NCBI RefSeq assembly: GCF_003628755.1
Contig: NZ_CP029256.1
Span: 2,809,585-2,873,584 of the forward strand
DNA length: 64,000 bases
Direction: 5' to 3'
From: Christensenella minuta
GTDB lineage: Bacteria; Bacillota; Clostridia; Christensenellales; Christensenellaceae
A program made the translations under genes and the position numbers. This document shows positions 4,719-64,000 of this stretch, piece after piece. The notes beneath the pieces are model-generated. The model did no database searches. It was not told the origin of the DNA and worked only from the letters and a program-made list of their open reading frames with translations. Numbering within the stretch: position 1 is the first letter of the stretch; the number at the start of each line of letters is the position of its first letter.

Positions 4719-4765
4719 GCTTTGTAATATGTTTTAAATGCTTCCCGGAGGAGGATTGATGAATT

Positions 4766-7130: not shown

Positions 7131-7148
7131 GCGGGATTGATATGGGTT

Positions 7149-7183: not shown

Positions 7184-7263
7184 ACTGTGTTTTTAACCGG
7201 TTCAGAAAACGCGAAGCGGCCGAAGCGGAAAACCGGCCGCAATGCGGCGGCCATAATTTGAAA

Positions 7264-8040: not shown

Positions 8041-8063
8041 GGAAAAATCCTTTCCCAAAGAGA

Positions 8064-8097
8064 AAAACAGGCAAACCTTTCGGTTCGCCTGTTTTTA
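8064..8097 (-). terminator. Terminator of the DUF4190 gene
   Basis: AAAACAGGC and GCCTGTTTTT pair around a CC-TTTC-GG core; on the minus strand it ends in five T. Confidence 0.8.
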
Positions 8098-8109
8098 AAC
8101 CCAGCCAGA

Positions 8110-10456: not shown

Positions 10457-10470
10457 TTATTAGACGGAAG

Positions 10471-10506
10471 AAAAACGGATATCCGCTCCCGGATATCCGT
10501 TTTTTC
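10471..10506 (+). terminator. Terminator of rho
   Basis: ACGGATATCCG / CGGATATCCGT stem around CTCC, flanked by A5 and T6; it can serve rho and the convergent esterase gene. Confidence 0.9.
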
Positions 10507-10519
10507 GTGACGCCCTGCT

Positions 10520-43018: not shown

Positions 43019-43056
43019 AATGTCCTAAAAATAATCAAAAGTGTGAGGTAAAAAAC

Positions 43057-44115: not shown

Positions 44116-44134
44116 AAATCGGAAGTAGAGTTGA

Positions 44135-44160
44135 CGTGGGGAGCTTTCCGGTTCCCCACG
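44135..44160 (+). other. mRNA hairpin between binding-protein and ATPase genes
   Basis: CGTGGGGA / TCCCCACG with a 10-base loop, without a T-run. Likely a stabilising or processing structure at the 3' end of the binding-protein message. Confidence 0.55.
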
Positions 44161-44210
44161 CTTTGCTCAAAAAAGGTTAAGAGTATTATCATTTGGAGAG
44201 GTGTGGTAAC

Positions 44211-45725: not shown

Positions 45726-45726
45726 T

Positions 45727-46701: not shown

Positions 46702-46744
46702 GCGGGGGGCATCATGCCCCCGTAGGGCTTTTATGAGGTGACAT

Positions 46745-47725: not shown

Positions 47726-48984
47726 AAAAACCAGATTACAGATATACGGTACGGGCATGCTATATGGGATATATCGTGCTGGCAATCGTGATAAATTTGA
47801 CACCGATCCTGTTTGTTCCGCTGCAAAGCCTGTATGGAATTACCTATGCTCAGCTTGGCATATTGATTTCGGTAAATTTTATTGTACAGGTAACGTCTGA
47901 CCTTGCGTTTGGCAGACCGGCCGATGCGTTGGGTGCGCGCCCGTTCGTAATATTGGCACAAGTGCTGACTGTAGCGGGTCTGGTGGTATTTGTGTTTGCG
48001 GCAGACTTGTTTGCAGATGTATTTACGGGTCTGCTGGTTGGCACGATTCTTTTTTCAATAGGGGGCGGGCTACTGGAATTGCTAATCAATCCTATTGTGA
48101 ACGCAATCCCGACCAAAGAGAAAATTTCAGCAATAAATGTACTGCATTCCTTTTATTCCTGGGGGCAGATCGTGGTCATTATTGTTACTACGGTACTGAT
48201 TTATACCTGGGGAGCGGCAAGCTGGAGGCAGATTGCATTGTTATGGCTGGCAATTCCGGCAATTAACATATTTTTATTTTCCAAAGCGCCTATTGCTCCT
48301 TTTGTAAAGGAAGGGAAACAGAAGATGCCGCTTAAAAAGGTAGCGAAGAACAAATACTTCCTGCTTGTGGTGTCATGTATTATTATGGCCGCAGCTTCTG
48401 AGCATGTAATGGGCGAATGGAGCTCGACATTTATGGAAAAGGCTGCGGGATTTCCAAAAATTGTCGGCGATACGGCAGGCGTATGCATGTTTGCGCTTAT
48501 GATGGGAGTGGGAAGAATCATCTATGCCAAATTGGGCGGGAAAAATTTGCTGAATGCTCTTGCTGCAGGCGCGGGCTTAGCTTTGGCGGCATATTTATTA
48601 ATTGCATTTACGAACAATGGAGTACTAGCTTTGGCGGCATGCGCATTGTGTGGATTTGCGGTAAGCACCATGTGGCCGGGCTGTATCGTACTTGCTGCGG
48701 ACCGTTTCCCACGGGCGGGAGCTTCAATGTTTTCTCTGCTTGCGGCAAGCGGCGACGCAGGCGCTGCATTTGCTCCGTGGCTTGCAGGTATGGTTGCGCA
48801 GGGGGTATCCGCAGTAAGCGGGGATCAGGCGGGCCTTCGGATGGCAATGCTTATAACGGCTGTGTTTCCGCTGACCATGCTGGCGGTCATATCGGTAATC
48901 AAAAAAGAACATAAAAAATCTGGAACACAAGAAAAGGAGTATAAAGGTGAAGACGGGAATCTCAGCATCGATGATGTGCGCTGA
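47722..48984 (+). CDS. Major facilitator superfamily transporter
   Basis: A 420-residue MFS carrier with twelve predicted helices; the loop between helices 2 and 3 reads FGRPADALGARP, a form of the MFS signature. It resembles sugar MFS proteins (fucose/glucose-type). The start overlaps the isomerase stop and the 3' end overlaps the epimerase gene by 38 bases, so the three are translated together. It offers a second way for the sugar across the membrane, or export of a by-product. Confidence 0.88.
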   Translation: MKKPDYRYTVRACYMGYIVLAIVINLTPILFVPLQSLYGITYAQLGILISVNFIVQVTSDLAFGRPADALGARPFVILAQVLTVAGLVVFVFAADLFADVFTGLLVGTILFSIGGGLLELLINPIVNAIPTKEKISAINVLHSFYSWGQIVVIIVTTVLIYTWGAASWRQIALLWLAIPAINIFLFSKAPIAPFVKEGKQKMPLKKVAKNKYFLLVVSCIIMAAASEHVMGEWSSTFMEKAAGFPKIVGDTAGVCMFALMMGVGRIIYAKLGGKNLLNALAAGAGLALAAYLLIAFTNNGVLALAACALCGFAVSTMWPGCIVLAADRFPRAGASMFSLLAASGDAGAAFAPWLAGMVAQGVSAVSGDQAGLRMAMLITAVFPLTMLAVISVIKKEHKKSGTQEKEYKGEDGNLSIDDVR

Positions 48985-49612
48985 TCTTATAGATATGAAA
49001 AAAGACATACGCGCAATGGAAAACGCGGGAATCGAGTACCTGCATTTTGATATTATGGACGGAAGCTTTGTGCCCAATTATGCACTGGGGGTATGCATGA
49101 TTGAACAGGTTAGAAGAGAGACAAATTTACCGTTAGATATTCATTTAATGGTAGAACGTCCGGAGCTGAAAACAGGATACTTTCCTTTTCGTGAGGGAGA
49201 TACAGTATCGGTGCATGCAGAAGGCACAGTTCACCTGCAAAGACTGCTGCAATCTCTTAGAAGGGAAGGGATACATCCGGGTGTTGCAATGAATCCGGCT
49301 ACTCCTGTTGAAGTGTTGGAATATGTGCTGGATGTGGCGGATTTTGTGTTGGTAATGACGGTGAATCCGGGATTCGCAGGACAGGTAATCGTAGAAGAGA
49401 CGCTGAGAAAAATTGAGAATGTACGCAGCTATCTGGATGAACGGGGTTACCGAGATACGGTGATTCAGGTTGATGGGAATGTAAGCTTTGAAAATGCAAG
49501 AAAAATGAAAGCTGCCGGTGCGGGGAATTTTGTAGCGGGGAGCGCGGGATTGTTCCGGACGGATATGACAATCCCGGAGGCTGCTAAAAAGCTGCGTGAA
49601 GCCATCCGGTAG
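48947..49612 (+). CDS. Ribulose-phosphate 3-epimerase family protein (AlsE-like)
   Basis: A 221-residue TIM-barrel epimerase. Family motifs: HFDIMDGSFVPNYALG, DIHLMVERPE, GVAMNPATP, VMTVNPGFAGQ and QVDGNVS. The family holds ribulose-5-phosphate epimerase (Rpe) and allulose-6-phosphate epimerase (AlsE). Departures from Rpe (VSVHAEGT, VDGNV) and the operon setting favour a hexulose-6-phosphate. GTG start 7 bases after AAGGAG, inside the MFS gene. Last gene of the operon; its product could be fructose-6-phosphate. Confidence 0.85.
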   Translation: MKTGISASMMCADLIDMKKDIRAMENAGIEYLHFDIMDGSFVPNYALGVCMIEQVRRETNLPLDIHLMVERPELKTGYFPFREGDTVSVHAEGTVHLQRLLQSLRREGIHPGVAMNPATPVEVLEYVLDVADFVLVMTVNPGFAGQVIVEETLRKIENVRSYLDERGYRDTVIQVDGNVSFENARKMKAAGAGNFVAGSAGLFRTDMTIPEAAKKLREAIR

Positions 49613-49758: not shown

Positions 49759-50538
49759 TCAACGGTTTTGAAAGTTGGCCTTTGTTTTATTCAAGAAAGC
49801 AGTCATACCGGTGATGCGGTCTTCTGTAGCGAAGGTTGTCGCATAGGCTTCGCTATCAAAGACAATGGAAGGACGTAGGCCAAGGTTGGCGCCTTCGTTG
49901 ATTACGCGTTTGGCCATGCGCACGGCGATGGGGCCCTGTTTTGCAATCTTATCAGCAATTTCCTGTGCGCGCCCGGTCAAATCCCCGGACCCTGTTACTT
50001 CCTGCACAATACCGAGCTCGTACGCCCTTTGCGCAGGAATATGTTCCCCTGTATAAATGTAATATTTCGCATAGCCGTTATTTATGAGCCGGGGTAGCCG
50101 TTGCGTACCCCCGCCGCCGGGAAAGATGCCCAGAGCTACTTCGGGCAAACCAATTTTTGCGTCTTGTGCAATAATGCGGATATCACAGGCCAGAGCAAGC
50201 TCGAGTCCGCCCCCCAACGCATAACCATTGATGGCGCAAATCACGGGCACAGGTAGGTTTTCCAGATTGTTGATCTGCTGTTGTACGTACAAGTTAAACT
50301 CGCGCCCTTCTGCAGCTGTGAAATCTCGCATAGCAGCGATATCTGCGCCCGCGATAAACGCTTTGCCCGCCCCCGTTACGATTATGGCGCGGATGCCCTC
50401 ATCCCGGCGTAAATCGTCAGTGATGCGCGCTAGATCATCAAGCATTTCACGGTTTATTGCGTTGAGCACTTTGGGCCGATTGAATGTGATGTACGCGAAG
50501 GCATCTCTTTTTTCATAAATGATAGTATTAAGTTTCAT
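49759..50538 (-). CDS. crt: Enoyl-CoA hydratase (crotonase)
   Basis: A 259-residue crotonase-fold hydratase: crotonyl-CoA + water to (S)-3-hydroxybutyryl-CoA. The oxyanion-hole segment GAGKAFIAGADIAAM and INGYALGGGLELALACD are intact, and the two catalytic Glu lie in the following helix region (LPEVALGIFPGGGGTQRLPR). It is the last gene of the six-gene CoA operon, 12 bases behind hbd. In the oxidative direction it feeds the product of the 4-hydroxybutyryl-CoA dehydratase to hbd. Confidence 0.94.
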   Translation of the reverse strand: MKLNTIIYEKRDAFAYITFNRPKVLNAINREMLDDLARITDDLRRDEGIRAIIVTGAGKAFIAGADIAAMRDFTAAEGREFNLYVQQQINNLENLPVPVICAINGYALGGGLELALACDIRIIAQDAKIGLPEVALGIFPGGGGTQRLPRLINNGYAKYYIYTGEHIPAQRAYELGIVQEVTGSGDLTGRAQEIADKIAKQGPIAVRMAKRVINEGANLGLRPSIVFDSEAYATTFATEDRITGMTAFLNKTKANFQNR

Positions 50539-50550: not shown

Positions 50551-51402
50551 TCATTCGTAATCGTAAAAGCCTTTGCCTGTTTTGCGGCCCAGCAAACCGG
50601 CGTCTATCATCTGTTTTAGCAGTGGGCAGGGGCGGTATTTCTGGTCGCCCGTATCATAATGCAGCACCTCCATAACGGCGTAAATGATATCAATGCCAAT
50701 CATATCTATCAGTTTTAATGGACCCATCGGATGGTTCAGGCCGTTTTGCATGGCAAGGTCAATGGCCTCCGGCGAAGCGACTCCTTCCTGCACCAAATAT
50801 GCAGCTTCGTTCAGCATCGGGTCAAACAGACGATTGACAATAAACCCAGGGCTGTCTTTGCAGACCACGGCGATCTTGCCCATCGATTCCCCCAGCGCCT
50901 GGGCGGTGGCAACCGTTTTTTCAGACGTGCGCAGGCCCCTGACAATCTCTACTAATTTCATAGCGGGTACGGGGTTAAAGAAGTGCATTCCCACTACGCG
51001 TTCGGGTGTATCTGTAAAAGAGCCGATTTTGGTGATAGAGATGGAAGAGGTATTGCTGGCTAGGATTGCGTCCTTGCGCATGACTGCGGCAAGTCCGGCG
51101 AATACCTTCTTTTTAATTTCCGTTTCCTCGGAAACGGCCTCAATGGCCACTTCACAATCCGCTGCTTCCTCCAGCTGGGCAACCGGTGTAATGAAGGAGA
51201 GCGTGGCCGTGACAGCTTCCGGTGTGATGCGCCCTTTTTGCGCTTGGCGCTGTAATCCTGTTTGTATTTTTTCCTTGGCCTTCGATGCGATATCCAGCGT
51301 GATATCATAAAGCTTTACCTGATATCCGCTGGCGGCCGCAACCTGCGCGATCCCGGAGCCCATCTGCCCGGCGCCTGTTACAAAGATTCGTTGAATATGC
51401 AT
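50551..51402 (-). CDS. hbd: 3-hydroxybutyryl-CoA dehydrogenase
   Basis: A 283-residue NAD(P)-dependent dehydrogenase interconverting (S)-3-hydroxybutyryl-CoA and acetoacetyl-CoA. The dinucleotide fold begins [25 protein letters not shown] and [15 protein letters not shown] with the catalytic His, and the C-terminal dimer domain [16 protein letters not shown] are typical. AAAGGAGATT precedes the start. It lies between thiolase and crotonase, as in clostridial butyrate genes, but no butyryl-CoA dehydrogenase or Etf genes follow. Confidence 0.96.
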
Positions 51403-51417: not shown

Positions 51418-52605
51418 TTATTCGCAGAGTTCATACAGTGTAGAAAGCCCCTGACCGCCACCGATACACAATGTAACGATGCCGTATTTGACACCGCGAC
51501 GTCGCATTTCGCCAATCAAGGTAAGCGAGAGGCGCGCGCCGGTTGAGCCGACCGGGTGTCCTAAAGCAATAGAGCCTCCGTTGACATTAACAAAATCCAT
51601 GTTCAATCCGAGATCGCGGCAAACGGCAACGCTCTGCGCGGCAAACGCTTCATTCACTTCCCAAAGGCCGATATCCTCTATCTTCAGGCTTGTTTTTTTG
51701 AGCAGCTTCTGAACGGACAGGACAGGCGCATAACCCATATATGCGGGGCTGAGCGCGGCTGCAGCACTGGTGACATAACGGGCCAGCGGCGGTATGCTGC
51801 GTTCTCTGGCTGTCGTCTCATCTGCTAATATGAGCACGCAGGCACCGTCGTTGAGCGGGGAGGAGTTGAGCGAGGTAACCGTACCCCCCTCCGGTTTGAA
51901 ATAAGGCTTTGCCGCCTGAAAGGTTTCCAGGACAGCGTTTTCCATATACGTTTCGTCTTTGCTGAACGTTACATTTTTCTTCTTCACCTTCACTTCGACT
52001 GGTACGATATCCGAGTCATATTTGCCGGTGTTCCAGGCCTTTTCCGCAAGCAAGTGGCTGCGCAGGGCGAATTCATCCTGTGCTTCGCGGGAAATGTTGT
52101 ATTTTTCGGCTACATTTTCCGCTGTAAGGCCCATATGATAATTTTCAAAGGGGTCTACCAAGCCGTCGTAGAGCATACCATCCAGCAGTTCGCCGGTCCC
52201 CATGCGATAGCCGAAACGGGCTTTTGCGAGGAGATAGGGGATACGGCTCATGGCTTCGCAGCCGCCTGCCGCTACGATGACGTTATCTCCCAGCATAATA
52301 GACTGTGCCGCCAGATTGATGGCTTTTAACGCTGTGGCGCAATTTTTATTCGGGGTAAATGCGGGCGTGCTGTCCGGCAGACCCGCATAAATTGCCGCCT
52401 GCCGCGCAGGATTAGAACGAGTGCCAGCCTGAAAATGTGTGCCGATGATTACCTCGTCAATGTCCTCCGGCGCTATCCGGGCTTTTTTGATCGCTGCGTT
52501 CAGGGCAGCCGCGCCCAACTCAGGCGCAGGAATACCGGCCAGAGATTGTCCGAATTTTCCAGTGGCGGTTCTGGCACCGCCCAATACAACCGGTTTATTC
52601 AACAT
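51418..52605 (-). CDS. thl: Acetyl-CoA acetyltransferase (thiolase)
   Basis: A 395-residue degradative/biosynthetic thiolase: acetoacetyl-CoA + CoA to two acetyl-CoA, or the reverse. The nucleophilic Cys lies in NKNCATALKAI (near residue 88), the GHPVGSTGARL and CIGGGQG blocks hold His and the second Cys. The start at 52605 (MLNKPVVLGG) has AGGAGAAGG upstream; it overlaps the dehydratase gene by 11 bases, showing tight coupling. Confidence 0.95.
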   Translation of the reverse strand: MLNKPVVLGGARTATGKFGQSLAGIPAPELGAAALNAAIKKARIAPEDIDEVIIGTHFQAGTRSNPARQAAIYAGLPDSTPAFTPNKNCATALKAINLAAQSIMLGDNVIVAAGGCEAMSRIPYLLAKARFGYRMGTGELLDGMLYDGLVDPFENYHMGLTAENVAEKYNISREAQDEFALRSHLLAEKAWNTGKYDSDIVPVEVKVKKKNVTFSKDETYMENAVLETFQAAKPYFKPEGGTVTSLNSSPLNDGACVLILADETTARERSIPPLARYVTSAAAALSPAYMGYAPVLSVQKLLKKTSLKIEDIGLWEVNEAFAAQSVAVCRDLGLNMDFVNVNGGSIALGHPVGSTGARLSLTLIGEMRRRGVKYGIVTLCIGGGQGLSTLYELCE

Positions 52606-54064
52606 AATCCTTCTCCTCATCTTTTTTTGTGATTTTATCGATCTTTGCAAGTTTTTTTGCAAGCGCTTTTTTATGGTCTATATTACTTTCGCGATACAGC
52701 ATAATTTTCATAGCCTCTGGAGAGCCTGCGCCGTGCATTGATTCCGCAAGTGCGGTGCCTCCTGTCATATTTTCCAGCAGCCGTCCCATACGAATGCGTT
52801 CCTCTGTGGAAAAATCCGGATTGGCGCTGAAATATTTGTCAATATATCCTTTAGTCTCGGGATTGCGGTAATCTGCCTCGTAAGGCAGAGTAGCGATGAA
52901 GCCGCCCGCGATGTCGTGTGCAAGGCGCGAAATTTCATACATATAACGGGTACAGTTCAGCTTAACCGTATTGGCGAGCAGGGTATTGACGTAATAGGAG
53001 CCAGCTTCTGTCTTGGTACCCTGACAGGAACATCCCAAAGAGCAGTTATACATCGTTTCCGCCATATTAATCATTTCTGTGATCTTATCCCGTACATGGC
53101 TGGCCTTGACGCCGTTGTATTCGGCCATTGCCGCGGCAGAACCGATGATAACGTCGGCGAGGCCCACCTTACAGCCGCCGTAATTCTGTCTATGGTAAGC
53201 GGCGAAGGTGGAAACATATTCCTGTGCGAATTTATACTCGCCGCACATGAATACACGGTCCCACGGCACAAATACGTCATTCAGGACTGTCAGCGTTTCA
53301 CCGCCGACGATGGCGTATTCGCTGTTGCCGGTATCGATATCGCCGTCTAGGCGGCGGTTATCGTTGGTCTGCCGCCCGAACAAGTGTACAACGCCGGGCG
53401 CATCTACGCGGATTGCACACGCGACAGCATAGTCCTGATCCTCTTCCCCAAGGTTGGTGGTAGGAAGTATAAGCATTTCATGTGAATTAATCATGCCCGT
53501 CTGGTGCGCTTTGGCGCCGCGGATCACAATACCGTCCTCCCTGCGCTCCACGATGTGTACAAATAAATCCGGGTCTGCCTGGGCGCTGGGTTTCTTTGAA
53601 CGGTCGCCTTTGGGGTCCGTCATAGACCCGGCGATCATCAGGTCGTTCTCCTGCACATATTCCAGGTACTTCTTGAAGCGTTCATGGTAATCGGTGCCGC
53701 ATTCCCGGTCAATATTGAATGTGGTGATAAACGTGGAATTCATTGCGTCAAACCCCACGCAGCGCTGGAAGCATGTGCCTGTTTTCTGACCAATCATGCG
53801 CAGCATTTTCACTTTTTTAACCAGATCGTCCGTGCTCTGGTGCACGGAGGTAAAACGGTTGATCTTTTTGCCGGTCAGATGGGAAGTGGTTGTCATCAAT
53901 TCTTCGTACATGGGGTCAAATGCGAGCTCGTAAGTAACGGCTGCAGAGTTGACGTGGGGCCTTGTCATGGGGTCGTCCACGACACTTTCTACCAATCGCC
54001 CATTTAAGTAGACAATAGGCTTGTATTGGCGCAGGCTTTCAATATACTGTTCTTTGTTCATCAT
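52595..54064 (-). CDS. abfD: 4-hydroxybutyryl-CoA dehydratase/vinylacetyl-CoA isomerase
   Basis: A 489-residue FAD and [4Fe-4S] enzyme that turns 4-hydroxybutyryl-CoA into crotonyl-CoA by a radical route. The cluster ligands known from the Clostridium aminobutyricum enzyme (Cys99, Cys103, His292, Cys299) are all here with exact spacing: Cys98 and Cys102 in TCFQRCVG, His291 and Cys298 in YHRQNYGGC. This separates it from the flavin 4-hydroxyphenylacetate hydroxylases of the same fold. It is oxygen-sensitive, so the host is anaerobic. The ATG at 54064 follows GGAGG by 9 bases. Substrate relatives of 4-hydroxybutyrate cannot be excluded. Confidence 0.93.
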   Translation of the reverse strand: MMNKEQYIESLRQYKPIVYLNGRLVESVVDDPMTRPHVNSAAVTYELAFDPMYEELMTTTSHLTGKKINRFTSVHQSTDDLVKKVKMLRMIGQKTGTCFQRCVGFDAMNSTFITTFNIDRECGTDYHERFKKYLEYVQENDLMIAGSMTDPKGDRSKKPSAQADPDLFVHIVERREDGIVIRGAKAHQTGMINSHEMLILPTTNLGEEDQDYAVACAIRVDAPGVVHLFGRQTNDNRRLDGDIDTGNSEYAIVGGETLTVLNDVFVPWDRVFMCGEYKFAQEYVSTFAAYHRQNYGGCKVGLADVIIGSAAAMAEYNGVKASHVRDKITEMINMAETMYNCSLGCSCQGTKTEAGSYYVNTLLANTVKLNCTRYMYEISRLAHDIAGGFIATLPYEADYRNPETKGYIDKYFSANPDFSTEERIRMGRLLENMTGGTALAESMHGAGSPEAMKIMLYRESNIDHKKALAKKLAKIDKITKKDEEKDYVE

Positions 54065-54087
54065 GGCTAAGGACCTCCAATAACATT

Positions 54088-54453
54088 TTATAGATTGTCC
54101 TGCCGGGCGATCAGCCGTTTGAGCTTTTCGGCTGTACGCCGAACTTCCTCCGGTTTTTCGACCAGCAGTGAACACCAATTTGAAAAACGTTCAGGTTCCG
54201 GAAAGCAGTCGGATTGACACTGCTTTACCAAAATACAGATATCCGGCAGGTATGCAGCGTTCCAGTGATGAATGGAAACTCCCGCCAATGAAGAAATTTT
54301 TCTGACAGCCGCCGCCGCATCATAGTGAGGGTTACAACTGCCGCAATATTTTGCGGCGACGGTCGGGGAACGTCCGGCCGCAGGGATGCGGGCAGACAGA
54401 CGCGTTGGATCACATGCCGGCATAACGGTTTTTGCGATTGCACATGTAAACAT
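54088..54453 (-). CDS. Small Cys-rich protein in the CoA operon
   Basis: A 121-residue protein with the motif KYCGSCNPHYD (about residues 36-46) and four further cysteines (two near the N-terminus, two in ILVKQCQSDCFPE). The C-terminal 30 residues are a charged helix. The CGxCNPxxD motif recurs, as I recall, in small unannotated proteins of anaerobes; a metal or iron-sulfur site is plausible. GGAGGTG stands 10 bases upstream of the ATG. It lies between the CoA-transferase and the dehydratase gene (23 bases before it), so a role in cluster assembly or activation of the dehydratase is a fair guess, no more. Confidence 0.65.
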   Translation of the reverse strand: MFTCAIAKTVMPACDPTRLSARIPAAGRSPTVAAKYCGSCNPHYDAAAAVRKISSLAGVSIHHWNAAYLPDICILVKQCQSDCFPEPERFSNWCSLLVEKPEEVRRTAEKLKRLIARQDNL

Positions 54454-54592: not shown

Positions 54593-56155
54593 CTATTGGA
54601 TGCTCAGTCCCATTTTTTCCTGCCGGAACAATCGGGTATCCATTTCTTTCAGGCTGGGCGATATTTCTACGGACGCTTCCATTTTATCCAAAACATCATG
54701 TTTCAGGTCGATGCCCGGAGCGACTTCCTGCAGAACAAGTCCGTGGCTGCTTAATCCAAATACAGCCCGTTCGGTAATATACAAAACTTTTTGCCCTGTC
54801 TGAATCGCATATTTTGCGCTGAATGTAATCTGCTGGACTGCTTTGCAAATCTTGCGGATGCGTCCCTCCTTCAGGATGCGCAACTTGCCGTCTCCGGTGG
54901 AAACCGTCAGACCGCTTGAGGTAAACGTTCCGCAAAACGCTACCATTTTGGCGTTTTGGGTAATGTCGATAAACCCCCCCCAGCCCGCTATTTTAGGGCC
55001 AAATTTGCTGACATTGACGTTACCGCGCTCGTCACATTCCGCAAGACCCAAAAACGCTTGGTCCAGCCCGCGCCCCTGGTAAAAGTCAAACTGGCTTGCC
55101 TGCCCGATGATCGCCTGCGGGTTTGCCGCCGCACCAAAATCCAGCCCGGAAAGGGGCAGGCCGCCGATTGGTCCGGATTCTATGGTTAATGTAATTTTTT
55201 CCCGCTCTCCTTCATCCTGGGCGACTGCCGCAATGCCTTCCGGCATACCAATGCCAAGATTGACGATCGAACCCTTTTGCAGCTCCATTGCCGCCCGGCG
55301 GCAGATGATCTTCCGCGCATTGAGCGGCATATGGGTATGGGCTTCGGCAGGCAAGGAAATATGCACTTCTCCGCTGTATGACGGGTTATACAGTGTGGCA
55401 AATGTCTGCTGATGGTTCTCTTTTTGGCATACTGGCACAATGATATCCACATAGATACCGGGGATTATTACATTCTTGGCGGGGATATTGGTATCCACGA
55501 TCTTTTCCACTTGTACTATGACTGTGCCGCCTGAATTCTTACAAGCCTGCGCCACCGCGGTCAGCTCCAGTTTGCATGCTTCATGATCCAAGCTGATATT
55601 TCCATATTGGTCCGCGTAGGTTCCGCGAAGCAAGGCGTAGTGAATAGGGCGGGTTTTGTACACCAGATACTCCTCGCCATAAAGCTCCACCAGGTCCACG
55701 ATATCCTCGGTTGTACGTTTATTCAGCCGGCCGCCTTCCACACGGGGATCCACAAATGTTTTCAATCCGACTTTTGAGAGCAAAAACGGTTTACCCGCCG
55801 CCGTTTCACGAAATGTTTGCGATATAACGCCCAGCGGTAGGTTGTATGCGGTCATTTTATTTTCCATAGCGAGCTTTTGCAATTTGGGCGCGTTGTTCCA
55901 ATGTCCGCCTATCGCCGTTGAGACCAAACCTTCTTCCGCCAAATGATTAAAGCCGCGTTCGCTCATATCTCCCTGACAAGCGGCAAAAATCATCGTCATG
56001 TGGTTCGGTTTTCCTGTTTGCAGAAATCGTTCCTGTAAAGCAATATACAGTTCTTCCGGCACTCCGATCCCACAAAAACCATCCACTGCAAACGTTTTAC
56101 CGGACTCGATACAATCGATTGCTTTTCGTGCGGCCAATATCTTTGCTTTTTTCAT
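54593..56155 (-). CDS. Acyl-CoA:acyl CoA-transferase (family I, fused subunits)
   Basis: A 520-residue family I CoA-transferase of the propionate CoA-transferase/YdiF type, with alpha and beta halves fused. The first half has GFCGIGVPEELYIAL; the second holds the catalytic Glu326 in TIESGPIGGLP, to which CoA is bound during the reaction. It moves CoA from acetyl-CoA (or a similar donor) to a free acid; in this operon the acceptor would be 4-hydroxybutyrate or a relative, giving the substrate of the dehydratase. GGAGG lies 5 bases before the ATG. First gene of the operon; a 56-bp regulatory element begins 43 bases upstream. Confidence 0.92.
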   Translation of the reverse strand: MKKAKILAARKAIDCIESGKTFAVDGFCGIGVPEELYIALQERFLQTGKPNHMTMIFAACQGDMSERGFNHLAEEGLVSTAIGGHWNNAPKLQKLAMENKMTAYNLPLGVISQTFRETAAGKPFLLSKVGLKTFVDPRVEGGRLNKRTTEDIVDLVELYGEEYLVYKTRPIHYALLRGTYADQYGNISLDHEACKLELTAVAQACKNSGGTVIVQVEKIVDTNIPAKNVIIPGIYVDIIVPVCQKENHQQTFATLYNPSYSGEVHISLPAEAHTHMPLNARKIICRRAAMELQKGSIVNLGIGMPEGIAAVAQDEGEREKITLTIESGPIGGLPLSGLDFGAAANPQAIIGQASQFDFYQGRGLDQAFLGLAECDERGNVNVSKFGPKIAGWGGFIDITQNAKMVAFCGTFTSSGLTVSTGDGKLRILKEGRIRKICKAVQQITFSAKYAIQTGQKVLYITERAVFGLSSHGLVLQEVAPGIDLKHDVLDKMEASVEISPSLKEMDTRLFRQEKMGLSIQ

Positions 56156-56198
56156 CCGGACCTCCTCTATCTTGCCTTACTGTTATTTATTCACAATA

Positions 56199-56254
56199 CC
56201 TGAAAATTGGGAATAAGTGAGATTCCGAATGTCCTTTGGATTATTCACATGTTT
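56199..56254 (-). promoter_or_regulatory. Shared 56-bp regulatory element, copy 1
   Basis: Read on the minus strand it begins AAACATGTGAATAATCC and ends AATTTTCAGG. It matches 51 of 56 bases of the element at 60362-60417 and has the same orientation relative to the operon it precedes. Half-sites such as GAATAATC and GGAATCTC about 20 bases apart suit an AraC-type regulator. Confidence 0.75.
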
Positions 56255-56447
56255 TTGATTTACTGACCCCGGCTGCAATCGAAAGATGGAAGGATGCGCC
56301 ATTGGAGAGCGTGGGATGCAGAGATGGTATGGGATGCGGGAATGGCGGGCGCAATCAAAAAGACCCGAAGCCAAACACACATAGACCCGGGCTGCAGGCG
56401 AAAACCATACTGCCGTCAAAGCGGGCTGGCGACGGCAGGGATACTTA

Positions 56448-58313
56448 TTAATCTGGTTTCTGTTCCGTTTGATTGGACTGGATGGGTATCCTTATGGTAA
56501 CGATGGTACCCTTCCCCGGCTCGCTTGTGATCTCCAGGCCGTATTGTTGACCAAAGAGCAGGGCAATACGCTGATGCACGTTCAGAACGCCGTAAGCAGG
56601 CAATTTTTCACCTTCATTATCATAAATGGCATTTCTGAGCCGCTGCAACGTCTGTTTATCCATACCTGCGCCGGTATCGCAGATTTCAAATACGATACAA
56701 CCGCCCTGTTCATAACCTTTTACAAAAATATCTGATTTTTCGCGCGTCCTTTTCGCTCCATGATAGATCGCGTTCTCAATGATAGGTTGCAATATAAGCT
56801 TCAGCACTCTAAATGAACCAATGCGGTTGTCTACATCAATATGATAATCAAAGGTATCCCCATAACGAATCTTTTGTATCTCTAAATAACTTTGAGCGTG
56901 TTTCACCTCCTCGTCTACGGTGATGGTATCTTTTCCCCTGCTGAGGCCTGTTCGGTATAGCTGGATCAAGGCTTTTGTCAGCCGTATCACCTGGTCGTTA
57001 TCCTTTTCCAAGGCCAGCCAGATAATGGAATCCAATGTGTTGTATAAAAAATGCGGGTTGATCTGCATCTGCAAGACCTCATATTCCGCCTTCCGCAGCT
57101 GCCGTTGCTCGTGATACACCTCTTCCACCAAGTCTCCAAGCTTTGAGACCATGTTATTAAATCCTCTACGCAGCTGGGCAATCTCCTCTACTCCCTCCAC
57201 TGGAATAGAAAGATCAAACCTGCCTTTTTCCACCTCGGAATAATAGGTAAGCATCTCGTTGAGGGGGGCGGTTATTGCCTCCGCAGTAGATACGGAAATA
57301 TTGGTATAAATGACGAGGATTGCGAAGATAGTGATGACAATCACAATGCTGATCAGCCAGATGGACTGAAGTAATTCCGATTGCTCCACCAAATTGATTA
57401 TATGCCAGCCGGTTAAGGGATCCGATATGCTCATAATACTGGTATGTATTCCAAAATCTTGGTGGGTGATGTCCTCCAGATCTATGTTTGCGCGCTCTGT
57501 TTTAGTAAAATTTTTGCTGTTCATGTTGGACAGGTCTTCAAACGTCCATCGTTCCGAAAAAGGCAACATATCTGAATATTGCCCGAAGCTCTTTGCATCA
57601 TCCGTATGCTTATCGCTTACTGCAACAATATCCTTATTCTGATTGACAATCATCAATGTACGGTTATTCTCCAAATTCTCCTCAATCATGCTCTGCAAAA
57701 CATCCTGATGAAATTCAATGAGTAAAACTCCCTTCTTGCTAACCTTCTCCCTGTCGATGATCGGAGCGCTGAACGTTATGATGTCACTGTCTATACTGTC
57801 AACGTTTACAGATTTTCCCGGCCCCCACCAAGTTGTTCGGTTGGACTTCATTACGTCGCTGTACCAAGGGGAAACCTTAAATGCTCCATGAACCCTTGAA
57901 TCTCTTTGGTCGGAGCCGATTACTACCCCGTTTTCCCCGTAAATATAGATTCCAGAGTACGCCGGGTTGCTTTTGCACATTTGGTACAGTTCAACACCTG
58001 CAATCACTTCGGCTTCCAGTTTTTCCTGCTGTGTAGGGAAAGTCTCGCGTAAGACCTCATCCACAAAAGGCATATTATTTATAACTTCGGAAAACAGATA
58101 GGTATTATATGTGAAATTTTGAACCTGCAGGGCCGTTTTGCTCAACGCATTGATGTTGTCATTGCGGTCCGAATTTCCCAGGAGATTTGCTGTCATTGTG
58201 ATCGAAATCACGGGAATCAGGATAATCGGTATGATAGCCATGACCAAGCTGTTCACGGCTAATTTACTGCGCAGCAGGTTTTTACGTGTTTTGATAATAT
58301 CAATTATTTTCAT
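56448..58313 (-). CDS. YesM-like sensor histidine kinase
   Basis: A 621-residue membrane kinase. Helices at about 20-44 and 316-338 enclose an extracellular dCache-like domain of about 270 residues; HAMP follows (to about 395). The kinase part is of the LytS/YesM class: phospho-acceptor His421 in QINPHFLYNTLDSIIW, then a HATPase domain with ENAIYHGAK and GAGMDKQTL. Such kinases pair with AraC-type regulators. Its start overlaps the binding-protein stop (ATGA). With the regulator and the binding protein it forms one minus-strand operon. The ligand is probably presented by the binding protein. Confidence 0.93.
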   Translation of the reverse strand: MKIIDIIKTRKNLLRSKLAVNSLVMAIIPIILIPVISITMTANLLGNSDRNDNINALSKTALQVQNFTYNTYLFSEVINNMPFVDEVLRETFPTQQEKLEAEVIAGVELYQMCKSNPAYSGIYIYGENGVVIGSDQRDSRVHGAFKVSPWYSDVMKSNRTTWWGPGKSVNVDSIDSDIITFSAPIIDREKVSKKGVLLIEFHQDVLQSMIEENLENNRTLMIVNQNKDIVAVSDKHTDDAKSFGQYSDMLPFSERWTFEDLSNMNSKNFTKTERANIDLEDITHQDFGIHTSIMSISDPLTGWHIINLVEQSELLQSIWLISIVIVITIFAILVIYTNISVSTAEAITAPLNEMLTYYSEVEKGRFDLSIPVEGVEEIAQLRRGFNNMVSKLGDLVEEVYHEQRQLRKAEYEVLQMQINPHFLYNTLDSIIWLALEKDNDQVIRLTKALIQLYRTGLSRGKDTITVDEEVKHAQSYLEIQKIRYGDTFDYHIDVDNRIGSFRVLKLILQPIIENAIYHGAKRTREKSDIFVKGYEQGGCIVFEICDTGAGMDKQTLQRLRNAIYDNEGEKLPAYGVLNVHQRIALLFGQQYGLEITSEPGKGTIVTIRIPIQSNQTEQKPD

Positions 58314-59305
58314 GTTATTTCCTGCTTTAAAAACTGATCTACATTTTTTTTCGTAACTAGAACCGGCTCGATAACCTGCTCAAATTCAAATGCCTCCTTA
58401 TCCAGTAGTCGATGTACCGTCTCCACAACCCGTTTGCCAAGTTCCTGTTGATCCATCCACACTGTGCTCAAAAGCCTTCCGGCTTTTACCAGCTTCAAAG
58501 CATCCTGCGTTCCTCCGGTTGATACAAATATTAAATCCTCGTCTGTATCACCTTGCAAATTTGCATAGATGGCTCCAATAGAACATCTGTCGTTTATTGA
58601 CCACAATACCTTTATGGAAGGGTATTCGTCCATATAGGAATACAGGCAGTAAATACCGTCGTCAATGGTTCCTGCGACCACATATTCGGGCGGCAATATT
58701 CTTATGTTTTTATAAGAGCTGAGCCCTTCGATAAAGGCGTTGGAATTATGCACATTGTGGGAGCGTGTATTGTTGTTAATCATACCTATTTCGATCTCTG
58801 CCTCATCCAGAGATCCGTCTGCGGCCAAACGGGAGGCAACGGCCTTTGCTGTTTCTGCTCCAGCCCTCCAATAATCGAAATAAATCTGTGCGGATACTTG
58901 GTCTCTATACTTTGTCGTCGTTTGAAAAACGATAATGGGGATGCTCTTTGAATTGCAATAAGCGAATGCATTTTGCAGACCCGAATACCTGTTGGGAATA
59001 ACGAGCAGAACGTCGATCTCCTGATCTGCCAGCTCTATAATATCCGCTTCCTGTTTGTCATTACTGCCTTCCGCATCTTTCAGAATAATTTCTTCTTCCG
59101 GCTTTAAATTATTTTGTATACTTAATAAAGCATTAGTCACCGGAGCCTCTTCCGACCGTGGAACCGATATGCCTATTATAATGGGCGAAGCTGCCGGACT
59201 GTCTGTTGAAGCGCCGTGTTCTGCACAGCCACCGAAAGACAGAAGCACGCCGCAGGCAAACAGAATACATGCTACGGCAAGGGCAGCACGCCTAATTTTT
59301 CTCAT
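58310..59305 (-). CDS. Binding-protein-like lipoprotein of a two-component system
   Basis: A 331-residue lipoprotein of the ribose-binding type (Peripla_BP_4). Signal peptide with lipobox cysteine in LLSFGGCAEH, then the binding fold IIIGISVPRSEEAP ... IDVLLVIPNRYSGLQ. It has no transporter genes in its own operon; it lies between a response regulator (14-base overlap) and a sensor kinase (4-base overlap). It most likely binds a sugar-like ligand outside the membrane and hands the signal to the kinase. The start at 59305 follows GGAGG. Confidence 0.88.
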   Translation of the reverse strand: MRKIRRAALAVACILFACGVLLSFGGCAEHGASTDSPAASPIIIGISVPRSEEAPVTNALLSIQNNLKPEEEIILKDAEGSNDKQEADIIELADQEIDVLLVIPNRYSGLQNAFAYCNSKSIPIIVFQTTTKYRDQVSAQIYFDYWRAGAETAKAVASRLAADGSLDEAEIEIGMINNNTRSHNVHNSNAFIEGLSSYKNIRILPPEYVVAGTIDDGIYCLYSYMDEYPSIKVLWSINDRCSIGAIYANLQGDTDEDLIFVSTGGTQDALKLVKAGRLLSTVWMDQQELGKRVVETVHRLLDKEAFEFEQVIEPVLVTKKNVDQFLKQEIT

Positions 59306-60092
59306 TACAATCCTCCGTTCTGAAATAGGAAGGCGATTTTCCCGTTGCCGCTTTAAAAGCAGTGCTGAACCATGTCGGATCACTGTACCCTACCTGTTCG
59401 GCTATCTCATAAATCCGTTTGTTAGTAGTGCTCAAGAGCTCAATCGATTTAATAATACGCAGATTGTTTAAATATTTCAGGAATGAAATCCCCTGACTTT
59501 TTTTAAATACTGTGCAAAAATAATTTTTGCTCATACCTACATAATGAGAAACTTCTTTTAATGAAAGCTTTGAATTCGCTATGTTTTTCTCCATATAGCA
59601 TTTTGCCTTATTCAATAAATCAGAATTTTCATCTGACAACTGGTCGCATCCCAGCATGATTCTTTTTATACTTTCAATTTTCTTAGAATTCTTTTCCTGC
59701 AGGGATTTTTCCTCGCGGATTTTCAGCAAATAGGGAGACAGTGCTTCCTCTGTGATCGGTTTGAGCAGGTAAGCGTTTACACCAAACCGTATTGCCTCCT
59801 GCGCGTATTCAAATTCATCATAAGCACTCATAATAATGATGCCGATGTCCATTTCCTTTTCTTTGATGCGTTCGATTAGTTGGATACCGTTCATAAAGGG
59901 CATACACACGTCTGTCAGTAACAAATCAATATTCTGGCCGCTTTGTTCAAGATGGTTCAGGGCCAACTGGCCGTCTCTCGCATCGCAGGCTACGTGGAAT
60001 CCATATTTTTCCCAATCGATACTATTGGTGACTCCACGGAGGCAAAGAGCCTCATCGTCGACTACCATAACGTTTAACAGCTTTTCCTTCAT
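59292..60092 (-). CDS. YesN-like response regulator (receiver + AraC HTH)
   Basis: A 266-residue regulator. Receiver domain (1-120) with Asp61 in LLLTDVCMPFMNG and Lys in YLLKPITEE; linker; AraC-type double HTH (about 160-262) with SLKEVSHYVGMSKNYFCTVFKK and RIYEIAEQVGYSDPTWFSTAFK. It is the first gene of the sensor operon, with its own strong promoter. It is the best candidate to bind the 56-bp elements upstream of the CoA-transferase operon and of the ABC importer operon. AGGAG precedes the ATG by 8 bases. Confidence 0.94.
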   Translation of the reverse strand: MKEKLLNVMVVDDEALCLRGVTNSIDWEKYGFHVACDARDGQLALNHLEQSGQNIDLLLTDVCMPFMNGIQLIERIKEKEMDIGIIIMSAYDEFEYAQEAIRFGVNAYLLKPITEEALSPYLLKIREEKSLQEKNSKKIESIKRIMLGCDQLSDENSDLLNKAKCYMEKNIANSKLSLKEVSHYVGMSKNYFCTVFKKSQGISFLKYLNNLRIIKSIELLSTTNKRIYEIAEQVGYSDPTWFSTAFKAATGKSPSYFRTEDCNEKN

Positions 60093-60217
60093 CCGATTTG
60101 CTCCTATTCTGTTTTGCCAAAAGCAAGATGCACTAAAACACGTTTTTAACTGATATTTTGATTACTTAAAAGCTTTTCCTGAATAAAATGATGGAGTGTA
60201 AATCTTTTGTGAGGCTT

Positions 60218-60247
60218 ATTATAAATCATTATTTGCTTTATTGTCAA
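60218..60247 (-). promoter_or_regulatory. Promoter of the sensor operon
   Basis: On the minus strand TTGACA (60247-60242), 18 bases, TATAAT (60223-60218): full consensus boxes, so expression is probably constitutive. Leader about 120 bases. Confidence 0.75.
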
Positions 60248-60311
60248 CTCTGGATCACAGGTAAACCGTGGTTTTAATAATGGCAGATAAAAACGCCCTA
60301 TGAACCTATGA

Positions 60312-60342
60312 GGGTGGTTAAATATGATTTTACCACCCTTTT
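60312..60342 (+). other. Hairpin between the divergent operons
   Basis: GGGTGGT / ACCACCC with a 13-base loop, followed by TTTT on the + strand. It could stop stray + transcription or be an operator; no gene ends before it. Confidence 0.45.
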
Positions 60343-60361
60343 AAAACCGAAAAAAAGCAGT

Positions 60362-60417
60362 AAACATGTGAATAATCCAAAAGACATTCGGAATATCACT
60401 TATTCAAAATTTTCAGA
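60362..60417 (+). promoter_or_regulatory. Shared 56-bp regulatory element, copy 2
   Basis: AAACATGTGAATAATCC ... AATTTTCAGA, 51/56 identical to copy 1. A possible -10 (AATAAT, 60426-60431) follows without a good -35, as expected for an activator-dependent promoter. Confidence 0.75.
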
Positions 60418-60677
60418 GGTTTGCAAATAATAGTATTAAACGATATAACCCCATTGAGCAATTAAATGAATCGAAACTGGTCAGATCAGCATAATCCGCT
60501 GTTTCATAAATATATGAAGAGTGGTAAAACCGATAATTAATAATTCAAGAGTCAAAAGATAATTGAAATAAAATTACGTATATCCATGACTTTAAATAAA
60601 ATAAAGGGGGATGTTGTGTAGGCATAGGTTAGGTAGGTTAGGGCTCTCGATTATTCGAAATGATGAGGAGGATAGAA

Positions 60678-61880
60678 ATGAAGAAGTACGGTCAAATAAT
60701 TTGTTTGTTACTTGTAGGAATATTGCTTGTAACATTTGTTGGATGTAGCACGAACAGCAGCGCAGAAACAGCGTCTGAAACTACTGTGCAGCAATCATCG
60801 GCGGAAAATGAACCGGCAGAAGAAAAAGAATCGAAAGGAATTCCTTCAATAAAGATTGGCTGGGCACCGCCGGAGATATCCGATGTGTATGAAATTGCTA
60901 CCAGGAAGCTGGAAGAATCCCTGAACAATGCCCGCGCACTTGGTTTTGAAGTGGAAGTCATCCAAAAGTCAACCGCAAATCACACTCCTGCAGACCAGAT
61001 TCAGGTGATCGAGAACCTGGTTGAAAGTGGAATTGACGTTTTGATGCTTTGTGTTTCAGACTGGGATTCATTAACAGAGACACTAAAAGAAGTAAATGAA
61101 GCGGGGATTCCAATCGTTCTGGTAAACCAGATTGAAGAAGCGCCGGGCGTTGAGATATATGGGTATATCGGGTTTGACAATGCTTCGGCCTCCGCATGCG
61201 GCGCATGGAACGTGATCGATGCGCTGGGCGGCCCGGGGTTCCAGGGCGAAGGAGAAACGGTAGACGTACCGGCAGAGACTTACTTGGATGAATCCTTCTG
61301 GGAAGACCTTTATAAAGATTTCGACGTCAACCAGATAAGCGGCAAAATAGCGCTCATTGACGGAGTAGCTGGTACTACCTTTTCCAACATCCGCGCGGAT
61401 GGATTCAAGAGCGTAATCAGCCGTTTCCCGAATGTTGAGATTATTTCGGAACTTCCGGGAGATTGGGACAGACAGACCGGCATGGAAGCAGCTGAAAATA
61501 TCCTGCAAAACAATGACGATCTGGACGCAATCTATGCCTGCTGTGCTGAAATGGGAATCGGTGCATATATGGCCGTGGAAAACGCGGGCCGTCTGGACGA
61601 TGTGCAGGTATTCTGCCAGGATGGGCTGGAAGAATCAATGAAGTATGTTTCGGAAGGCAAGATCAAAGGCGATTCGTGGCATGGTATTTGGGAATGGTGC
61701 TGGTATGGTGCGGAATATTGTGTGAGAGCCGCGCTGGACTTAGAGCCGGAAAGCCAGGTATTTGATGTTCACGCGCGCTCTATTATCCTGCCCAATGTCG
61801 ATCAGTTCTATCCGGAACCTCAGCTTGAGGAAATAGACTGGCAGACTGTTTACGACGAAGCCGCAGCAAAATATGAATAG
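60678..61880 (+). CDS. Sugar-type ABC binding lipoprotein
   Basis: A 400-residue binding protein of the ribose type. Signal peptide with lipobox cysteine in VTFVGCSTN, a Glu/Ser-rich linker to about residue 58, then the binding fold IKIGWAPPEISDVYEIATRKLEES. It is about 80 residues longer than RbsB, partly from an acidic insertion near residue 195 (GEGETVDVPAETYLDES). GAGGAGG precedes the ATG. First gene of the importer operon. An unusually aromatic C-terminal part (WHGIWEWCWYGAEYCV) suggests a special ligand. Ligand unknown. Confidence 0.92.
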   Translation: MKKYGQIICLLLVGILLVTFVGCSTNSSAETASETTVQQSSAENEPAEEKESKGIPSIKIGWAPPEISDVYEIATRKLEESLNNARALGFEVEVIQKSTANHTPADQIQVIENLVESGIDVLMLCVSDWDSLTETLKEVNEAGIPIVLVNQIEEAPGVEIYGYIGFDNASASACGAWNVIDALGGPGFQGEGETVDVPAETYLDESFWEDLYKDFDVNQISGKIALIDGVAGTTFSNIRADGFKSVISRFPNVEIISELPGDWDRQTGMEAAENILQNNDDLDAIYACCAEMGIGAYMAVENAGRLDDVQVFCQDGLEESMKYVSEGKIKGDSWHGIWEWCWYGAEYCVRAALDLEPESQVFDVHARSIILPNVDQFYPEPQLEEIDWQTVYDEAAAKYE

Positions 61881-61913: not shown

Positions 61914-61950
61914 GAATGCACCGCGTCCACTCTGGTGACGCGGTGCATTC
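61914..61950 (+). other. mRNA hairpin between binding-protein and ATPase genes
   Basis: A perfect 14-base stem (GAATGCACCGCGTC and its complement) with a 9-base loop and no T-run; it resembles the hairpin at the same place in the first importer operon. Confidence 0.65.
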
Positions 61951-61984
61951 AAAAAGGCATATACGTGCAGGGAGTGATAAAATC

Positions 61985-63484
61985 TTGAATGAATTTTTAT
62001 TGGAAATGAAGGACATCAAAAAAAGTTTTTTTGGGACTATGGTTCTCCGCGGACTTAGTTTTGCCGTCAAACCCGGCGAAGTTCATGTCCTACTGGGAGA
62101 AAATGGTGCAGGGAAGTCTACTTTGATGAAAATACTGTCGGGGGTATATTCCCTGGACAGCGGGGAAATCTATATTGATGGAAAGAAAGTAACGATCAGA
62201 GAACCTATGCATTCCATTGAACTGGGAATTGGAATGGTATATCAGGAGCTCTCGCTTGTGCCGGAATTAAATGTGATAGAGAATATATGGCTTGGAAATT
62301 TGCCGAAAAATAAAATAGGACTTGTGGATTGGAAAACGGCAAAGAGGAAAACGCGCGAGATTTTTAAAAAATTCGACTTGCCAATCGAAATAGAAAAAAA
62401 GGTGTCATCGTTTGATCTTGGGATACGGCAGCTTGTTGAAATAGCACGGGTTACATCACAGAATGCAAAGCTGATTATTCTGGATGAGCCAACTTCGTCT
62501 CTGACTAAAAGCGAAACGGAAAAGCTATTCCACACAATCAAAACCTTGAGAAATCAGGGAGTTTCATTCATCTATATTACCCACAGGTTAGAAGAGGTGG
62601 CGCAAATTGGAGATTGCGCAACGGTAATCCGAGATGGCCAGACAATTGGAAAAACAATCTATGATTTGTCTTCGGTGAGCAGAAAGGATCTCATAACCGC
62701 TATGGTGGGAAGAGATTTAAGCGAGCAATATCCAAAGGAACCCGCAATGAAAAATGAAGTGGTTTACGAAGTAAAAAACCTTTCGGACAAAAGGAATTTT
62801 TCAGATGTTTCCTTTGCGCTTCATAGAGGGGAAGTGCTTGGGATAGCGGGGCTGGTAGGGGCTGGACGAAGCGAACTCTTGGAAGCGTTGTTTGGTTCGA
62901 GAAAGGTTGAAAACGGAGAGGTCTACCTATATGGGAAACCCTTCGTTGTAAAAAATTCGCGCCACGCTATCGAAAACGGAATCGGATTGGTTACAAAAGA
63001 CAGGGCCGATGGACTCCTGCTGCATATGCCAATTTATGAAAACGTTGTAGTCAGTACATTCAAAAAGTATGAAAAATGCGGCTTTCGGCTAAAGAAAAAG
63101 GAAATAAAGGATGCTGAAGCCTATAAAAAGCTATTAAACATCGTCTCGGAATCCGTAATGCAAAAGGTACGCAACTTAAGCGGCGGAAACCAGCAAAAGG
63201 TAGCCGTTGCAAAATGGAACTGCAATGAGACGAAGATTTACCTGATGGACGATCCGACGAGGGGGGTCGATGTTGGTGCAAAGGTCGAAATATATAAGCT
63301 GATTAATTCGATTACCGCAAACGGCGGGGCAGTATTGATGGTGTCCTCCGATATGCCCGAGCTGTTAGGAATCTCGGACAACATTATGGTTATGCAAAAA
63401 GGGAAGGTTACTGCATATGTAAGTGCGGAAGAAAGCACGCAGGAATTCCTTCTGGAAAAAGCTGTTGGAAGTGAGGAATTATAA
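61985..63484 (+). CDS. Ribose-type ABC importer, duplicated ATP-binding protein
   Basis: A 499-residue RbsA-type ATPase. First domain: Walker A GENGAGKST, signature FDLGIRQLVEIAR (degenerate), Walker B LIILDEPTSSL. Second domain: GLVGAGRSE, LSGGNQQKV, YLMDDPTRGVDVG, where the usual catalytic Glu is Asp. The start is set at the TTG at 61985, 10 bases after GGGAG, which gives the normal family N-terminus; the ATG at 62006 is an alternative. It overlaps the permease gene by one base. Confidence 0.93.
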   Translation: MNEFLLEMKDIKKSFFGTMVLRGLSFAVKPGEVHVLLGENGAGKSTLMKILSGVYSLDSGEIYIDGKKVTIREPMHSIELGIGMVYQELSLVPELNVIENIWLGNLPKNKIGLVDWKTAKRKTREIFKKFDLPIEIEKKVSSFDLGIRQLVEIARVTSQNAKLIILDEPTSSLTKSETEKLFHTIKTLRNQGVSFIYITHRLEEVAQIGDCATVIRDGQTIGKTIYDLSSVSRKDLITAMVGRDLSEQYPKEPAMKNEVVYEVKNLSDKRNFSDVSFALHRGEVLGIAGLVGAGRSELLEALFGSRKVENGEVYLYGKPFVVKNSRHAIENGIGLVTKDRADGLLLHMPIYENVVVSTFKKYEKCGFRLKKKEIKDAEAYKKLLNIVSESVMQKVRNLSGGNQQKVAVAKWNCNETKIYLMDDPTRGVDVGAKVEIYKLINSITANGGAVLMVSSDMPELLGISDNIMVMQKGKVTAYVSAEESTQEFLLEKAVGSEEL

Positions 63485-64000
63485 TGGAAGACTTAGTAAG
63501 AGCAAACAAGAAGCGTTTGGTATCCAGCTACCTACAAAGATTCAGCTCAGTACTTATTTTGGTAGTCATTATCGTAGTATTGGCGATCGCCAATGAAAAA
63601 TTTTTTCAATTTAGCAATTTTACAAATATTTTCAAACAGACGGCAATATTGGGCGTGATGGCCTTGGGACAAACGATTTGCATCATTACAGGCGGCATCG
63701 ATTTATCCGTTGGAACCGTACAAAGCCTGAGCGGTGTCATCATGGCGGTTGCGGCGACAGAGTGGGGAGTTCCGACGGTCGTAGCCATTATTATGGGGCT
63801 TGCGGCCGGTACGCTGTGCGGGTTTGTAAGCGGCGTCATCATTGTAAAAAGCGGTATTCCGCCTTTTATCATGACAATGGGCATGATGACGATTGCGGAA
63901 GGCCTGGCACTGATTACAACGGGCGGCCTGATTATCAAGGATCTTCCGGAAGAGATGGTGTTCCTGGGTTCGGAAAGCGTTATGGAAATTCCCACCAGCA
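63484..64000 (+). CDS. Ribose-type ABC importer, permease (3' truncated)
   Basis: The first 172 codons of an RbsC-type permease; the frame is open at the right edge. It starts MEDLVRANKKRLVSS and shows the family signature GQTICIITGGIDLSVGTVQSLSGVI and VSGVIIVKSGIPPFIMTMGMMTIAEG. The ATG overlaps the TAA of the ATPase gene. It forms the membrane channel for the ligand bound by the first gene's product. About half of the protein lies outside the window. Confidence 0.93.
   Translation, partial: MEDLVRANKKRLVSSYLQRFSSVLILVVIIVVLAIANEKFFQFSNFTNIFKQTAILGVMALGQTICIITGGIDLSVGTVQSLSGVIMAVAATEWGVPTVVAIIMGLAAGTLCGFVSGVIIVKSGIPPFIMTMGMMTIAEGLALITTGGLIIKDLPEEMVFLGSESVMEIPTS

Follow-up and report, generated by a model that had tools for sequence, protein, structure and literature searches.

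A two-copy 56-bp element around a sensor operon of Christensenella minuta, probable operator of an import and a coenzyme A-ester operon

In the XylFII-LytS system with YesN, a binding protein, a LytS/YesM-type kinase and a YesN-type regulator are encoded beside a monosaccharide ATP-binding cassette (ABC) importer, the ligand being xylose. The 4-hydroxybutyrate branch of clostridial butyrate formation comprises a coenzyme A (CoA)-transferase, a dehydratase, a hydroxyacyl-CoA dehydrogenase, a thiolase and Bcd/Etf-like genes. Here we describe a 64,000-nucleotide stretch of Christensenella minuta DNA (the window, positions 2809585-2873584 of a chromosome that forms one contig of 2,969,292 bases), in which two copies of a 56-bp element lie on either side of an operon for an AraC-type response regulator, a binding lipoprotein and a YesM-like sensor kinase. 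Unlike in the XylFII-LytS case, the importer appears to share its control with another operon, which encodes CoA-ester enzymes. This second set of enzymes recalls the 4-hydroxybutyrate branch by its CoA-transferase, its dehydratase with CxxxC and HxxxxxxC motifs, its hydroxyacyl-CoA dehydrogenase, its thiolase and the linked Bcd/Etf-like genes, and differs from it in that a sugar-type importer, a tagatose/psicose 3-epimerase, a transaldolase-like protein and a split transketolase are linked to them here.

The closest described control system is CuaDSR of Ruminiclostridium cellulolyticum, where the sensor operon is constitutive and the importer operon is up-regulated by CuaR (PMC10384115, which also names the XylFII-LytS complex of Clostridium beijerinckii). 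As in that account of CuaDSR, an extra binding lipoprotein, a sensor kinase and a YesN/AraC-type regulator share one operon here, and the adjacent sugar ABC importer operon, which encodes a binding protein of its own, is a candidate target here as cuaABC-cbpA is the target there; the constitutive expression reported for the sensor operon has its counterpart in a consensus promoter (PMC10384115). The same text gives CuaR 538 residues, with a stretch of 318 between receiver and helix-turn-helix (HTH), whereas the regulator here has 266 in total, and it gives cellobiose as the ligand, whereas here the ligand is probably a carbohydrate and the candidate target operons are two (PMC10384115). A literature search returned no paper recognisably on this gene cluster, which does not disprove that one exists.

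We consider it likely that the element is the operator of the adjacent AraC-type regulator, co-activating the import and fermentation operons of one compound, because the only two copies found in the chromosome stand at promoter positions on either side of the regulator's own operon (Table 1). Copy A precedes the ABC importer operon (operon A) and copy B the CoA-transferase/dehydratase operon (operon B). The sequence-only reading had reported 51 identical bases out of 56 in an ungapped alignment, each copy pointing toward its operon, and both statements were reproduced: the mismatches are element positions 21, 34, 45, 46 and 56, and each copy faces the operon 3' of it, at 43 nt from the CoA-transferase ATG for copy B and 242 nt from the first ATG of the binding-protein open reading frame (ORF) for copy A, so that the pair faces outwards around the sensor operon. 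The copies have a G+C content of 27% and 36%, in comparison with 51% for the window. That the element is no scattered general repeat was also borne out. BLAST of the own chromosome at E≤0.001 gave two matches, the copies themselves (E 4.3e-58 and 5.6e-17), and the own genome (G000) again gave two at E≤1; a 20-mer and a 22-mer that span most of the element, with up to 3 mismatches allowed, found these two sites only, their reversed patterns yielding 0 matches in the same chromosome. Within the window, the runner-up ungapped match to copy A reaches 30/56 and falls on copy B itself, read from its opposite strand, and a self-match scan (blastn, E≤1e-4, minimum 30 bp and 78% identity) showed the element to be the sole dispersed pair among non-coding matches, the other two being palindromes.

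Counted in ten-base bins from the start of the element, the copies share 10, 10, 9, 9, 8 and 7, then 5, 5, 2 and 2 bases, and 1/10 and 3/10 in the two bins just upstream; conservation is strong as far as the -35 region and falls off beyond it. A repeat search drew longer inverted arms (56177-56254 and 60362-60439; 78 nt, 81%), which reach the -10 region. The inverted, outward-facing position of the copies around exactly the sensor operon might also suggest that the pair arose by recent duplication, or that it bounds a mobile or invertible segment containing this 4.1-kb operon. We regard such an origin as quite unlikely: by domain scan, the segment carries three sensor genes (59055-59471 and 59836-60153 on the plus strand are ORFs of 100 residues or more that overlap these antisense), no target duplication was seen by eye, the searches of the own genome found two copies only, and weak similarity runs on beyond the segment into the -10 regions, each copy being at promoter distance.

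The operator of an AraC-family activator is expected at or over the -35 region of a promoter that lacks a good -35, and this is where the element lies. A -10-like hexamer follows each copy, AATAAT 8 nt 3' of copy A and AATAAA next to copy B, and the earlier description of -10-like sequence without a good -35 agrees with the promoter scans, which gave a 9/12 site at copy A and nothing above threshold in 56100-56460 around copy B. Neither target operon has a good -35, in contrast with the consensus promoter of the sensor operon; a strong sensor promoter together with weak target promoters would be expected of a sensor that is made constitutively and of targets that need activation. The weak sites at the copies are suggestive only, since promoter-like sites in the scan of 60080-60700 occur in near-chance number (4 found, 3.4 expected). 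A location 5' of the first genes, for copy B so close to the start codon, would also be compatible with a cis-acting RNA, such as a leader or riboswitch, common to both mRNAs. This explanation is very improbable in our opinion, given that an Rfam search of 54-64 kb produced no match at E≤1, that the copies are not predicted to fold better as RNA than their dinucleotide shuffles (z -0.42 and 0.48; -1.07 and -0.01 versus mononucleotide shuffles), that the region around copy B has no promoter-like site in the above scan, and that the distances to the two start codons are so unequal. A structured 244-nt leader at 60437-60680 was considered separately and rejected, its fold being no better than shuffles.

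The sensor operon looks intact, with signature residues kept in the regulator, the lipoprotein and the kinase, and the regulator preserves those expected for phosphorylation. Domain and PDB matches fit the labels that the sequence-only reading had given to these three genes, as well as to the CoA-transferase and the dehydratase. The hallmarks of three-component sugar sensing are found together: a binding lipoprotein, a YesM/LytS-type kinase and a receiver-HTH_AraC regulator in one operon, next to a sugar ABC importer that includes a binding protein of its own (the importer ATPase and permease named by eye). Both binding proteins, that of the importer and that of the sensor, resemble ribose/allose-type ones. 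Sets of regulator, lipoprotein and kinase of this kind are widespread: among 80 regulator-type loci kept of 173 confirmed, tblastn at E≤1e-15 matched the kinase in 78 and the kinase plus the ABC ATPase in 56, and the dehydratase in 0.

In the circuit that we propose, the sensor operon would be expressed constantly from its consensus promoter, and the lipoprotein would bind an outside ligand, probably a carbohydrate, acting with the YesM-like kinase. The 56-bp element would serve as operator and -35 region of two promoters too weak alone, so that the phosphorylated regulator, occupying both copies, would recruit RNA polymerase to the -10 sequences just 3' and switch on operons A and B together for uptake and fermentation of one compound. 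Regulator binding, phosphorylation, activation, operon continuity and the ligand are what we infer here, and it is proximity, the sole link of the element to the adjacent regulator, that assigns the one to the other. The element could therefore be the site of some other DNA-binding protein, for example the global regulator CodY, half of whose box is resembled by the 3' part of the element (AATTTTCAG, in comparison with the consensus that we take to be AATTTTCWGAAAATT). We think this improbable, as a search of the own genome for CodY (PF06018) came up empty (0/1, the control being positive in 2 of 14 genomes) and a global regulator would be expected to act at more than two sites, whereas partial elements with 3 mismatches occur twice only. 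Read as the operator of the adjacent regulator, the element ties together two operons otherwise annotated apart and shows what the sensor may control. Circuits of this kind are already known; the fermentation route that this one seems to control is the less usual and more interesting part.

Gene order suggests that each of the two gene runs would be one transcript, and in neither does the number of terminator-like sites depart much from chance (16 found and 13.8 expected in operon A, 6 and 8.8 in operon B). The dehydratase homolog of operon B is nearer to 4-hydroxybutyryl-CoA dehydratase than to HpaB oxygenases, with 582 bits to PDB entry 1u8v, 511 to the vinylacetyl-CoA isomerase 6vjr and at most 134 to HpaB-type chains. 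Its CxxxC and HxxxxxxC motifs (ORF positions 136 and 329) are presumably the cluster ligands of the dehydratase. Past the window end (locus L018), operon A goes on along the same strand with DUF4432, D-psicose/tagatose 3-epimerase (NF051856, above cut-off), FSA/transaldolase-like (an FSA match below the FSA cut-offs), VOC and aldehyde dehydrogenase genes, followed by genes for an acyl-CoA dehydrogenase, EtfB, EtfA-ECH, a nitroreductase and a transketolase split into N and C parts. The acyl-CoA dehydrogenase is butyryl-CoA-dehydrogenase-like, its top PDB match being chain C of 5ol2, which we take to be the C. difficile Bcd/Etf complex; as to the exact substrate the label is tentative, since the best NCBIfam match, acryloyl-CoA reductase, falls below the cut-off. 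Operons A and B combined hold a full gene set that leads from CoA activation to both butyryl-CoA and acetyl-CoA. Such complementary contents support the earlier idea that the element serves uptake and breakdown of the same compound. We tentatively propose, with a confidence somewhat short of probable, that the two operons encode an undescribed fermentation route for an imported carbohydrate or carbohydrate acid, in which the transaldolase-like protein and the transketolase would cut out a fragment to be oxidised and activated with CoA, from which a second, dedicated 4-hydroxybutyryl-CoA-dehydratase homolog would remove water on the way to butyryl-CoA and acetyl-CoA.

As for the relatives, the other dehydratase copy of the own genome is 55% identical to that of the window. 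Copies at 55-56% are found in all five congeners searched and one at 52% in another genus of the family, homologs being present in 7 of 17 family genomes in all. The transaldolase-like protein, searched at 1e-40 in 395 genomes of the order, was seen in the own genome only, in two copies, and the VOC protein, at 1e-25 in 391 genomes of the class, in the own genome only; both sets are samples of larger groups. One congener (G005) has an extra dehydratase copy, 61% identical to the window's, within a contiguous same-strand run (L138) that starts with a sugar-type binding protein, ATPase, two permeases, a zinc dehydrogenase and a phosphotriesterase-like protein, continues with transketolase N and C parts, thiolase, dehydratase, HBD, ECH and SDR, and ends with two CoA-transferase subunits, acyl-CoA dehydrogenase, EtfB and EtfA. 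Pfam identified the zinc dehydrogenase, the phosphotriesterase-like protein, the transketolase halves, the CoA-transferase subunits and the SDR, and tblastn with the window proteins the rest. Compared with the route proposed here, this version has another front end, of zinc dehydrogenase and phosphotriesterase-like protein. A second binding protein, 47-54% identical to that of the G005 importer, is divergent from the run, and a few kb away, on the strand opposite to that of this binding protein and behind a dehydrogenase-like ORF, stand a YesM-like kinase and a 525-residue YesN-type regulator (Pfam); these three proteins may work together. Alongside the kinase and regulator genes is a further ORF, of 536 residues, whose C-terminal part matches the window regulator. 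As judged from its gene content, the G005 run supports independently that importer, transketolase and CoA-ester genes form one pathway, and is no test of the element. Together with it, the locus points to a carbohydrate fermented via a 4-hydroxybutyryl-CoA-dehydratase homolog.

Several observations weigh against the element as operator of the adjacent regulator, or against the two operons as units devoted to one compound. At E≤0.01 the element was detected in the own genome only, out of 17 family genomes, and in the G005 cluster its best match is 28/56, the background level, which is expected if the G005 regulator is not orthologous. The regulator itself was found at 1e-20 in 7 of the 17 family genomes, with near-full-length identities of at most 38%; at 1e-45 the 395 order genomes returned 1, itself, and the best near-full-length identity among the 80 kept loci is 36%. 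Phylogenetic footprinting of the element is therefore impossible, for lack of a close regulator ortholog in the genomes searched, and two copies cannot tell functional constraint from recent duplication. Internal repeats of the element are not clearly above chance. From eight combinations of length and type tried, a 17-mer direct repeat is best at 12/17 in copy A, which 6 of 100 mononucleotide shuffles match, and at 9/17 in copy B, and a 15-mer inverted repeat reaches 11/15 in each copy (as do 5 of 100 shuffles of copy A); for pneumococcal YesN, no clear repeat motif is reported. From copy A to the ATG there are 242 nt. Within the runs, the CoA-transferase and dehydratase genes are separated by about 530 nt that hold one promoter-like site (54069-54041), and in operon A 156 nt lie between the VOC and aldehyde dehydrogenase genes and about 270 nt precede the acyl-CoA dehydrogenase gene, weak 9/12 promoter-like sites being present within or beside these gaps, so that internal promoters are possible in both runs. 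Moreover, the binding proteins of sensor and importer share only 25% identity over 201 residues, and the latter scores higher against an unrelated binding protein (42937-44115) than against the sensor lipoprotein; the similarity between them offers no argument for a common ligand. On balance, it is plausible but short of proof that both operons serve one compound, the complementary operons and the G005 core with a sugar-type importer in one run speaking for it and the dissimilar binding proteins lending it no support.

Table 1. Coordinates of the main features in the window
Feature	Position	Strand	Remarks
Enoyl-CoA hydratase	49759..50538	-	
3-Hydroxyacyl-CoA dehydrogenase	50551..51402	-	
Thiolase	51418..52662	-	
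4-Hydroxybutyryl-CoA dehydratase-like protein	52595..54178, probable start near 54064	-	1u8v 582 bits; CxxxC and HxxxxxxC
CoA-transferase, first gene of operon B	54593..56155	-	PF01144
AATAAA, -10-like hexamer	56186..56191	-	7 nt 3' of copy B; read from sequence
Copy B of the 56-bp element	56199..56254	-	5' of CoA-transferase operon
YesM-like sensor kinase	56448..58313	-	HAMP, His_kinase PF06580, HATPase_c; NPHFLYN motif
Periplasmic-binding lipoprotein, probable signal receptor	58310..59383	-	Peripla_BP_4; lipobox-like LSFGGC
AraC-type response regulator, 266 residues	59292..60092	-	Receiver (DD at 12-13, D61, K111) and HTH_18
Consensus promoter TTGACA-18-TATAAT, sensor operon	60218..60247	-	12/12; 125 nt 5' of regulator ATG
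Copy A of the 56-bp element	60362..60417	+	5' of ABC importer operon
Promoter-like TTCAAA-17-AATAAT, importer operon	60403..60431	+	9/12; -35 within copy A
Sugar-type ABC binding protein, first gene of operon A	60660..61880	+	
Sugar-type ABC ATPase	61916..63484	+	Named by eye and gene context
ABC permease, runs off the window	63484..63999	+	Named by eye

A control scan for self-repeats in the 80 kept loci gave, among the repeats listed, a non-coding one in 42 loci, of which 25 have palindromes only and 17 other repeats, 8 of the latter with copies more than 1 kb apart. On inspection of these 8 loci, some repeats stand 5' of genes, and some are very AT-rich or common to Paenibacillus loci; in one case (L103) a copy lies 286 bp 5' of the ORF that contains the regulator. 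None was judged clearly the same arrangement, and parallels may exist among them.

Some further features of the region are worth recording. Between the CoA-transferase and dehydratase genes sits a 121-residue ORF (54088-54453, minus strand) with a CGSCNPHYD stretch, for which Pfam at E≤1 gave no match. In operon A, an Etf alpha subunit is fused to an enoyl-CoA hydratase domain in a single ORF of 608 residues (L018:12211-14037). The window also has a second sugar-type ABC importer cluster (42937-49612), followed by mannose-6-phosphate isomerase-, MFS transporter- and ribulose-phosphate epimerase-like genes, named by eye. Elsewhere in the own genome (L121, 2483000-2502999), where the BLAST and 20-mer/22-mer searches of the chromosome did not find the element, a paralogous cluster at 2719-10933 of that locus comprises a sugar ABC importer, a split transketolase and a regulator that looks ROK-type by eye, as well as a 397-residue ORF that in its C-terminal part shares 50% identity with the transaldolase-like protein.

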